Assembly (NCBI GenBank): GCA_030148865.1
Contig: JASBSR010000036.1
Coordinates: forward strand, 1 to 64,000
Length of the DNA stretch: 64,000 nucleotides
Direction: 5' to 3'
From: Gammaproteobacteria bacterium
GTDB taxonomy: Bacteria > Pseudomonadota > Gammaproteobacteria > SZUA-229
In this document: one piece after another, positions 5,688 to 16,141 of the stretch
Layout: every line of letters starts with the position of its first letter
How positions within the stretch are numbered: the first letter of the stretch is position 1
Translations under genes and position numbers: made by a program
Notes under the pieces: generated by a model
What the model saw: only the letters and a program-made list of their open reading frames with translations
Told to the model about the DNA's origin: nothing
Database searches by the model: none

Positions 5688-7625
5688 CTATAAAGCAGTG
5701 CGACCGCGGCCCACGATTTCTGCTGAGAATCGGCTGGCCAGGTCTGCTAAAGACATGGCGCCAAGATCTTCTCCGCCTCGTGTGCGTACGGCCACTGTAT
5801 GTGTTTCGAGCTCCCGGTCGCCAATCACCAGCATGTAGGGAACCCGCTGTATTGTGTGCTCGCGGATTTTAAAGCCAATTTTCTCATTTCTCAAGTCCAG
5901 TTCGACTTTAAATCCTTGTTCAACAAGGAAATCGTGTGCTTTTTGTGCAAAACTGGCCTGTTTGTCAGTAATGTTCATCACCACCGCCTGCACCGGTGCC
6001 AGCCAGAGCGGAAATTTGCCCTCGTGCTCTTCGATGAGTATGCCAATAAAACGCTCGACCGAGCCCAGAATCGCGCGGTGCAGCATCACCGGCACCTTGC
6101 GAGTATCATCTTCGGCGACATACTGGGCGTCGAGCCGACCGGGCATGGAAAAATCCACCTGCATGGTGCCACACTGCCACTGGCGACCGAGACAGTCTTT
6201 CAGCACGAATTCGATTTTCGGACCGTAGAACGCGCCTTCGCCGGGCTGTAATTTCCAGTCCAGACCCTTGTTATCCAGCGCCAGTTCCAGCGCTTTTTCA
6301 GCCTTATCCCAGGCCGCATCGTCACCGACGCGCTGCTCCGGGCGGGTCGATAGCGCCACCAGGATCTCGCTGAAACCAAAGTCGGCATAGACCTCGTAGA
6401 CCAGATCAATGAAAGCCGACACTTCGTCCTGCAGCTGATCTTCGGTACAGAAAATATGGGCGTCATCCTGGACAAAATTGCGTACCCGCATCAAACCGTG
6501 CAGCGTGCCCGAAGGCTCGTTACGGTGACAGGAACCAAACTCGGCCATCCGCAACGGCAGATCGCGGTAGCTCTTCAGGCCCTGATTGAACACCTGAATA
6601 TGGCAGGGGCAGTTCATCGGCTTGACTGCGAAATCGCGGTTTTCCGAATGCGTGGTAAACATCATGTCGCCGAACTTGTCCCAGTGTCCGGATTTTTCCC
6701 AGAGACTGCGGTCGACAATCTGCGGCGTGTGGATTTCTTCATAACCGTGGCGGCGTAACTTGTTGCGAATATAGTTCTGCACTTCCAGATAAATGCGCCA
6801 GCCCTTGTCGTGCCAGAACACCATGCCCGGCGCTTCTTCCTGGGTGTGAAACAGGCCCAGTTTTTTCGCCAGCTTGCGATGATCGCGTTTCTCGGCTTCT
6901 TCGAGCTGGTGCAGATAGTGTTTGAGCTGTTTTTTATCCGCCCAGGCCGTGCCATAAATGCGCTGCAGCATTTCATTGTTTGAATCGCCGCGCCAGTAAG
7001 CACCGGCGAGCTTCATTAATTTGAAGCCTTTGCCGAGCTTGCCGGTGCTGGGCAAATGCGGGCCACGGCAGACATCGAACCAGTCGCCCTGACGATACAC
7101 CGAGATTTCTACACCCTCGGGAATATTCTGCTCGATAATCTGGACTTTGTAGTCTTCGCCCAGCTCGGCAAAGGTTTTGATCGCAGTCTCGCGATCCCAG
7201 ACTTCACGCTCAATGGCCAGATCGCGTTTCACGATCTCGTGCATCCGCGCTTCGATTTTTTCCAGGTCTTCGGGAACAAATTTTTCGTCACGAGCGAAAT
7301 CGTAATAAAAGCCGTTTTCGATTGCCGGACCAAGGGTCACCTGAGTACCGGGATAGAGCTCCTGCACTGCCTGCGCCATAACATGCGCGGCATCGTGGCG
7401 CATCAGCTCCAGCGCGTCTTCATCGCGCGCGGTAATAATCGCCAGCTCGGTATCGTTATTGATGAGATAAGAAGCATCAACCAGCTCGCCATCGACGCGG
7501 CCCGCCAGCGTGGCTTTCGCCAGCCCGGGGCCAATCGCCTCGGCCACCGCCATCACGGTCACGGGGGCATCAAATTCACGTTGGGAGCCGTCCGGCAGAG
7601 TAATGACAAGGGCATTTTGGGGCAT
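5688..7625 (-). CDS. thrS: Threonine--tRNA ligase
   Basis: TGS domain, [37 protein letters not shown]; upstream of infC. Confidence 0.98.
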
Positions 7626-7689
7626 AGTATTCTCCAGTGGCGGCCGATACGAGGAACCGCGTGATTATGATGTTGGCTTGTTCTACCAC

Positions 7690-7797
7690 TGAAACTGGCA
7701 GGCACGAGTGGATTACTCCAGGCATCCATGCCTTCCGCCCCCTGCGGGGGTCAGCCTTCGGCTGTTCAAAATCGCTCCCAGCGATTTTGTCGAACCA
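7690..7797 (-). repeat. Partial tRNA-Val 3' copy interrupted by a multi-hairpin palindromic element (copy A)
   Basis: 7692-7713 and 7790-7797 match the tRNA-Val 3' end/T-arm; 7714-7789 is an inserted run of hairpins (aaaatcgct/agcgatttt, cagcc/ggctg, cccc/gggg, ggcat/atgcc). Confidence 0.8.
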
Positions 7798-7807
7798 TCT
7801 ATTTATT

Positions 7808-7871
7808 GTCGGTGGTTCAAATCCACTCGACCGGTGAAACTGGTAGGCACGAGTGGATTCGAACCACCGAC
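7808..7871. repeat. 22-bp inverted repeat including the tRNA-Val T-arm
   Basis: 7808-7829 gtcggtggttcaaatccactcg versus 7850-7871 cgagtggattcgaaccaccgac, 21/22 complementary. Confidence 0.9.
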
Positions 7872-7917
7872 CTCTTCCATGTCAAGGAAGCGCTCTAACC
7901 AACTGAGCTACGCGCCT
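7841..7917 (-). tRNA. tRNA-Val (anticodon GAC), CCA encoded
   Basis: Reverse complement AGGCGCGTAGCTCAGTTGGTTAGAGCGCTTCCTTGACATGGAAGAGGTCGGTGGTTCGAATCCACTCGTGCCTACCA. Confidence 0.95.
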
Positions 7918-8139
7918 GTATTATTTCTTCATTCTAAACTACGCTCGGATTCGCTGTCACGACACCGACCCCTTCCATGTCAAGCCTTGTCCATACAAGC
8001 GGGCTCTAACCCACTGAGCTACGCGCCTGTATTATTTCTTCATTCTAAACTACGCTCGGATTCGCTGTCACGACACCGACCTCTTCCATGTCAAGCCTTG
8101 TCCACAAAGCCGAGCTAACCCACTGGGCTTCGCTGAGGC
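7918..8139 (-). repeat. Two tandem ~111-bp units containing degenerate tRNA-Val 5' regions
   Basis: Near-identical units gtattatttcttcattctaaactacgctcggattcgctgtcacgacaccgacc..cttccatgtcaagccttgtcca.. ending in tRNA-Val-like cactgagctacgcgcct; 5' ends at 7917, 8028 and ~8137. Confidence 0.9.
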
Positions 8140-15700: not shown

Positions 15701-15820
15701 TCGGAGGTGTCCGAGTGGTTGACTAAATTCGCCGGGAGCGAATTTGAACATCAGCGTTTTTTGCTGATGGCCCGAAGGGCGGAGGCGCAGGACGCGCCGA
15801 GTCACGAGCACGCCGTAGTG
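15701..15820 (+). repeat. Partial tRNA-Ser 5' copy interrupted by a multi-hairpin palindromic element (copy B)
   Basis: 15703-15722 matches the tRNA-Ser 5' part, element 15723-15804, then gagcacgcc resumes tRNA-Ser-like sequence; serial hairpins aaattcgc/gcgaattt, catcagc/gctgatg, gccc/gggc, ggcgc/gcgcc, gagcac/gtgctc. Confidence 0.8.
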
Positions 15821-15967: not shown

Positions 15968-16141
15968 AACTTATGCCCTGACCTGAATGGCACTTACTCA
16001 AGAAAATTTTTTGTGTTTTCCGTCATTCCCATAAGCTTCTAGCGGGAATCCAGTTTTATATTCGTGTGATTCCCGCCAAAAACACGCGGCAACGACGATG
16101 GATTTAAGTGCTATACGCTTGAGTTAAGTGCCATTCTGCCC

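Follow-up and report, generated by a model that had tools for sequence, protein, structure and literature searches.

A four-hairpin core of the RrB type in tRNA-linked repeats of a gammaproteobacterium, a candidate CsrA-binding RNA module

Two units with a folded core in the window

The window (the whole stretch of 64,000 nucleotides analysed here) contains two copies, A and B, of a short core that folds into hairpins (HP1 to HP4). The features around them are listed below by position in the window; in sequences, a vertical bar marks an insertion point.

5688..7625, minus strand: thrS, threonine--tRNA ligase (NCBIfam TIGR00418, E 1.2e-221), directly downstream of the copy A unit
7682..7713, minus strand: partial tRNA-Val 3' end and trailer (ATCCACTCGTGCCTGCC AGTTTCA...), direct repeat D3
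7714..7789, minus strand: core of copy A, 76 nt, four hairpins, read from the sequence and the fold
7790..7796, minus strand: GGTTCGA, 5' half of the T-arm of the partial tRNA-Val, left of the insertion point (from sequence)
7808..7829, minus strand: inverted copy of the tRNA-Val T-arm, inverted repeat I1 (95%; z of the unit fold -4.2)
7841..7917, minus strand: intact tRNA-Val(GAC) (ARAGORN; Rfam 69.6 bits), upstream of copy A in the direction of transcription
15703..15722, plus strand: 5' fragment of tRNA-Ser that ends in the D-loop (GGAGGTGTCCGAGTGGTTGA; from sequence)
15723..15803, plus strand: core of copy B, in the D-loop (70.3 bits, E 2.4e-15; a training-set member)
15804..15814, plus strand: continuation of the interrupted tRNA-Ser (ACGAGCACGCC, cf. 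AGGAGCACGCC; from sequence), the same right flank as after the D-loop copy in locus L193
15878..15967, plus strand: intact tRNA-Ser(GGA) (ARAGORN), downstream of copy B

The order on one strand is tRNA-Val, copy A unit, thrS. The minus strand reads GGTTCGA (7796-7790), the 76-nt insert (7789-7714) and then ATCCACTCGTGCCTGCCAGTTTCA, with the insertion point exactly at the T-loop (GGTTCGA|ATCC). The core has the termini C...GGAGTA, the HP1 loop CUGGGAG and the HP4 loop CAUGGAUG, and it scores 73.9 bits (E 2.7e-16 in its own genome) against our covariance model, for which it was a member of the training set. Its four hairpins lie back to back (-32.9 kcal/mol, z -2.8, equalled by 1 of 200 shuffles), as the original prediction of a hairpin insert in the T-arm of a partial tRNA-Val copy had it. 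The prediction that removing the insert restores the tRNA-Val 3' end is correct for 30 of 31 bases: the joined flanks (GGTTCGAATCCACTCGTGCCTGCCAGTTTCA) differ from the intact tRNA-Val(GAC) with its trailer by one mismatch (CTGCC vs CTACC), where none had been implied.

Two repeats flank this insert. The direct repeat D3 (7682..7713 vs 7827-7859, 88% across 33 nt) is the feature by which a tRNA-linked repeat is defined. The inverted repeat I1 (7808-7829 vs 7850-7871, 22 nt, 95% complementary) places an inverted tRNA-Val T-arm 5' of the insert; this arm and the tRNA-Val/thrS setting had both been overlooked before. Because the inverted T-arm sits there, the whole 140-nt unit closes as one structure, in which the 5' part of the arm (CGAGTGGAT) pairs with ATCCACTCG 3' of the core (-56.2 kcal/mol, z -4.2, equalled by 0 of 200 shuffles). 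We note that upstream of the intact gene, positions 7892-8113 hold two tandem 111-bp tRNA-Val copies (94%), and that in both of these pseudogene copies an additional small hairpin is inserted near the anticodon arm (CTTGTATGGACAAG, CTTTGTGGACAAG), again with GGA in the loop.

Copy B, predicted at 15.7 kb, is real (15723-15803) and folds well (-36.2 kcal/mol, z -4.0, equalled by 0 of 200 shuffles); the tRNA-Ser 5' fragment that it interrupts is split in the D-loop rather than in the T-loop. A tRNA-Ser 5' fragment whose D-loop is split by a core forms a second class of units (window 15723-15814; loci L119, L189, L193, L270), and the right flank of copy B, L193 and L270 can form one more hairpin (ACGAGCACGCCGTAGTGCTC in copy B). 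To our knowledge, this class has no description.

Covariation and spread of the core

The covariance model (R1) was trained on 24 copies, A and B among them. Rather than two loci with no covariation, the outcome that the original prediction had named as speaking against it, the genome-wide search with R1 returned 34 copies in the own genome at E<1e-3 (38 at E up to 1), with strong covariation. For an independent set, we aligned to R1 the 134 distinct sequences from a DNA pattern scan that are absent from the training set: standard pairs fill 97.8% of the cells, two-sided changes occur in 21 of the 22 pairs, and covariation scores 0.529 as compared to 0.159 in shuffles (0 of 500 reach it) and at most 0.065 in slid controls. 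The own-genome copies, some of which are training-set members, give the same picture. This supports selection acting on the folded strand, as predicted, and since 34 copies in one genome are joined by independent covariation that none of 500 shuffles reaches, the element is far beyond chance.

At least one copy was found in all 54 genomes of the family (range 1 to 86 per genome), and copies are present in 122 of 274 genomes of the class sample and in 72 of 299 of the phylum sample; the latter includes one carrier family outside the class, with copies that adjoin tRNA-Asp and tRNA-Ser. In named genomes, the pattern scan picked up at least 117 stretches. Among the 80 scan matches listed, every title naming a sub-phylum group is gammaproteobacterial, and the carriers include Alteromonadaceae, Shewanella, Rheinheimera, Nitrococcus, Rhodanobacter, Dyella, Serratia and Buttiauxella. 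Matches in E. coli and Klebsiella plasmids and in a Salmonella phage collection are probably the rrn T1-T2 region, as was seen in the one case read (L262). Some copies share equal or near-equal scores while being scattered over the genome (~17 in genome G299 and ~7 in G175), which suggests recent multiplication, and the many copies point to a small non-autonomous mobile element, as originally suggested. Using blastn, a Buttiauxella unit had no match in E. coli genomes although R1 matches RrB of E. coli (see below), so sequence search alone is too weak for this element.

The T-loop position and the duplicated tRNA 3' ends look like attL/attR pairs, as they would if integrative elements that use tRNA genes had left the units behind as remnants of their attachment sites. 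We consider this origin highly improbable, because the repeated unit is only 100-200 bp long and has no coding capacity, its stems covary, the same folded core is found at many tRNA types and also away from tRNAs, and the R1 search of viral contigs gave 0 matches. In the loci read, only short spacers (~100-200 bp) separate the tRNA from the repeat, with no linked integrase or long element between repeats.

Insertion behaviour and target site

GGTTCGA (one mismatch allowed) precedes 149 of 228 non-redundant matches and 7 of 30 copies in the own genome; the own genome is the fairer sample, because the pattern scan selected for GGTTCGA. In 12 cases covering six tRNA types, the joined flanks form a complete tRNA gene, with the cut always directly after TTCGA or TTTGA. 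The prediction that the element enters tRNA sequence behind GGTT(C)GA is supported. T-loop copies have the junction TTCGA|ATC in a redundant tRNA copy and a single orientation. Among 45 copies that are neither in T-loops nor in tandem, the left side has G in 32 and A in 40, and the right side has A in 40. This gives GA|A as the target, in which no more than one A is ambiguous, and there is no clear target duplication.

Other landing sites include the D-loop of tRNA-Ser (copy B, L119, L189, L193, L270), palindromes of the form CGTCATTCC..GGA|ATCCAG (L094, L099, L100), and the HP2 and HP3 loops of other copies (nested copies, L029); exact tandem copies were found in L003 and L030. The idea of tRNA as the target in itself was not upheld, as GA|A sites within other repeats, and within further copies of the core, also hold solitary copies. 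We also considered the rule that the target is always a hairpin loop, which holds in T-loops, D-loops and nested copies and fails for several solitary copies; GA|A fits better, because several solitary copies sit in a stem half of a CGTC-type repeat. Palindromic repeats of this type (CGTCATTCC..GGAATCCAG, CGTC-type REP), in which cores land, are present at window positions 16021-16060 and at many own-genome loci.

IS200/IS605 and REP/RAYT systems use subterminal hairpins, and with these as precedent the core could be a selfish REP-like mobile element, whose hairpins and GGA loops would be sites for a single-strand DNA transposase and whose tRNA link would reflect a favoured landing site. The precise GA|A target with no clear duplication, the nested and tandem insertions, the solitary copies inside CGTC-type palindromic repeats and the copy number (up to 86 per genome) are all in keeping with such an element. 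We nevertheless find it doubtful, if conceivable: among 30 Y1_Tnp loci with 1.5 kb flanks we found no convincing copy (best E 0.11), and hence neither a REP/RAYT-type linkage nor the trans-acting recombinase or transposase that had been thought worth looking for; tRNA-linked copies share the direction of the tRNA; a transposon has no need of a closing inverted T-arm; and the homologue RrB exists as a processed RNA (PMC8144298). Dispersed palindromes are common to the cores, REP/RAYT and CGTC-tagged repeats, and CGTC repeats are likewise without a dedicated transposase (PMC3733652), whereas the cores are multi-hairpin stretches of ~75 bp, not a single tagged palindrome, and themselves insert into CGTC-type repeats.

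A closing helix (at least 10 complementary bases between the left and right flanks) is found in 12.6% of the T-loop copies vs 0.9% after re-dealing of flanks, and in 2.6% vs 1.7% for the other copies; it stands out in some of the T-loop copies only. Because flank complementarity is enriched in T-loop copies, the inverted T-arm belongs to the tRNA-linked unit and not to the core. Recombination or replication slippage may have spread the tRNA-linked arrays.

Known relatives and candidate CsrA-binding loops

The tRNA-linked repeats (TLRs) of E. coli, known since 1978, amount to 22 copies at ten loci (Egan and Landy 1978; Rudd 1999, both as cited in PMC8144298). By the account of the 2021 study, none of them had a known function until the description of RrA, RrB and RrF, sRNAs between terminators T1 and T2 of E. 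coli rrnA, rrnB and rrnD (Stenum et al. 2021, PMC8144298), which are cut from the rRNA transcript and were regarded as unique among TLRs in binding CsrA. RrB, placed by that study among the tRNA-linked repeats, binds CsrA in pull-down and gel-shift assays, and the shift is lost once three GGA are changed; the tRNA-linked TLRs of E. coli are predicted to be non-binders, and deletion of rrA/B/F has modest effects only (PMC8144298). The repeated 3' end was proposed to direct RNase E, a view that the closing helix found here would fit; insertion or mobility is not mentioned in the main text (PMC8144298).

The four-hairpin core found in copies A and B is of the RrB type and belongs to the TLR/RtT class. 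R1 matches RrB, which is outside the training set, over its full length (74.2 bits, E 2.5e-19). RrA, RrB and RrF have the same four-hairpin core with GGA in two loops (HP1 and HP4), and their core too is embedded in a partial repeat of the end (3') of an upstream stable RNA gene (5S in E. coli); unlike the tRNA-linked window copies, they are rRNA-linked and described only in Enterobacterales. The anatomy of copy A is also identical to that of the tyrTV rtT repeats of E. coli K-12 (RtT), which have an inverted T-arm and read ...GGGGAAGGATGAGAAGC..GGTTCGA|core ending GAGTA|ATCCTTCCCCCACCACCA: the junctions GGTTCGA|core|ATCC...CCA after a tRNA gene, with the inverted T-arm 5' of the core, are found in both. 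R1 matches all four E. coli tyrTV rtT repeats weakly (E 4e-5 to 9e-4). Conversely, the rtT model of Rfam (RF00391, cut-off 45 bits) scores a Serratia copy at 56.6 bits, and hits copy A (19.4), a Gln copy of the own genome (31.5) and a Buttiauxella copy (40.7) at the right place and below the cut-off; a search at the Rfam gathering score named nothing at copies A or B.

We read nine named loci of E. coli K-12. The tyrTV core differs from the window copies in its reduced HP1 and its lack of GGA loops, and the TLRs of the lys and arg clusters keep HP2-HP4 and are without HP1 and GGA. Copy A has the 3'-end repeat of TLRs (30 of 31 nt across T-arm, acceptor and trailer); copy B, which follows a tRNA 5' fragment and precedes an intact tRNA, is without it. 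Both lie on the strand of the adjacent tRNA gene (copy A after tRNA-Val on the minus strand, copy B before tRNA-Ser on the plus strand), as is typical of TLRs in tRNA or rRNA operons, and the solitary own-genome copies lie outside such operons. We thus class copy A as a TLR, and copy B as sharing the core only, since it precedes its tRNA and does not have the TLR hallmark. The match to a characterised family, the E. coli tRNA-linked repeats (rtT RF00391; RrA/RrB/RrF), was a possibility raised against the original prediction, and part of the novelty is removed because the element belongs to this described class. A full core that is widespread in tRNA-linked repeats outside Enterobacterales goes beyond the published description. 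Judging by the literature searched, in which tRNA-linked repeats come up in two papers, three things are new: how widely the core ranges, the constancy of the CsrA-type loops when the core is tRNA-linked, and its behaviour as an insert.

Among 218 distinct full copies (column-based count), 206 have GGA in the HP1 loop and 194 in the HP4 loop, as compared to 21 for HP2 and 18 for HP3; the HP1 counts lean upwards, because R1 and the scan pattern both contain the HP1 GGA, and the scan pattern leaves HP4 untouched. In HP4 the stem letters vary freely and the loop is constant, with CAGGATG (38), CAGGAAG (29) and CAGGACG (20 of 218) as the top loops including the closing pair. These commonest loops equal the repeated CAGGA(U/A/C)G element of CsrB, the CsrA SELEX consensus being RUACARGGAUGU with GGA in a hairpin loop (PMC7652899). 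The copies thus resemble the CsrB/CsrC sponges in having this motif in hairpin loops (PMC7652899) and differ from them in that they have two loop sites per copy vs ~9-18, are tRNA-linked, and are only predicted to bind CsrA. The GGA loops are less constant in the own genome (HP1 24/29, HP4 20/29), as expected if many solitary copies are decaying.

Our best explanation, with a probability of roughly 0.6, is that the core acts as a CsrA-binding RNA module from tRNA transcripts, carried by a non-autonomous mobile element. As DNA, it would be an insert of ~70-85 bp that enters at GA|A, with the T-loop of a redundant tRNA copy (TTCGA|ATC) as a very frequent site, and in one orientation. As RNA, it would be co-transcribed with the neighbouring tRNA; the 3' T-arm/acceptor repeat, paired with the 5' inverted copy, would mimic a tRNA or rRNA 3' end and let tRNA-processing enzymes trim the unit, and the released RNA, displaying GGA in the HP1 and HP4 loops, would bind a CsrA/RsmA-type protein as a weak CsrB-like sponge whose level tracks tRNA synthesis. 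This proposal takes anatomy, covariation, class membership, loop conservation, target site and spread as observed, and would extend to the window copies the transcription, processing and CsrA binding demonstrated for RrB of E. coli alone (PMC8144298), together with a putative route of movement for the core.

The loss of HP1 and the GGA loops in the tRNA-linked TLRs of E. coli that we read counts against this explanation, as does the PF02599 search, which found no csrA in the own assembly (93% complete); a transposase could likewise conserve GGA. On the same side stand the prediction that those TLRs do not bind CsrA, the modest effects of deleting rrA/B/F, the less constant GGA loops of the own genome, the search around Y1 loci that turned up no mobilizing enzyme, and the restriction of a clear closing helix to some T-loop copies. 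The csrA gene was found in 31 of the 54 family genomes; in the class sample it is nearly universal (234 of 274 genomes), so that comparing its presence with that of the element is uninformative. Its absence here could possibly be an assembly gap, because a tRNA-Ser(TGA) repeat breaks contigs C31 and C41 of the own assembly, and csrA of many relatives is located within a few hundred bases of core-bearing tRNA-Ser/Arg clusters, beside repeats at which assemblies break.

The units might instead be structured tails of tRNA transcripts that serve in 3'-end processing, stabilisation or termination and do not act in trans. They do come after tRNA genes and retain the tRNA 3' end, CCA included, and in Serratia a terminator is duplicated with that end. 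We judge this unlikely, as it leaves the near-invariant GGA loops and the solitary intergenic copies unexplained, the terminators lie outside the core, and copy B sits in a tRNA 5' fragment upstream of its tRNA.

Returning to the CsrA-binding module, the data suggest that the tRNA-linked copies of E. coli are reduced forms of an RrB-type core, which is itself the widespread form and moves about as an insert. A more tentative extension, possible though short of likely, is a mobile regulatory RNA of ~75 bp that inserts at GA|A with a preference for T-loops and seeds CsrA-sponge genes on tRNA promoters, tying the Csr network to tRNA synthesis, with rtT and RrA/B/F of E. coli as its degenerate and domesticated descendants. 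If true, there would be a link between Csr and tRNA across Gammaproteobacteria and some other Pseudomonadota. Two questions become directly testable, namely whether tRNA-linked repeats act as CsrA sponges, and what moves them.

In several genomes, csrA lies ~130-600 bases upstream of cores on the same strand (contigs G008 C57, G016 C195, G055 C37, G279 C16, G198 C70 and G179 C30). These neighbourhoods, at or near tRNA-Ser/tRNA-Arg clusters, place the gene of the suspected binding partner beside the element, and possibly reflect old synteny alone. We also observed terminator hairpins after tRNA genes that were duplicated along with the tRNA 3' end (L199, L040 and L284; tRNA-Lys of Serratia and E. 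coli, and tRNA-Ser in L040), which gives a dual-terminator layout resembling T1/T2 of rrnB.
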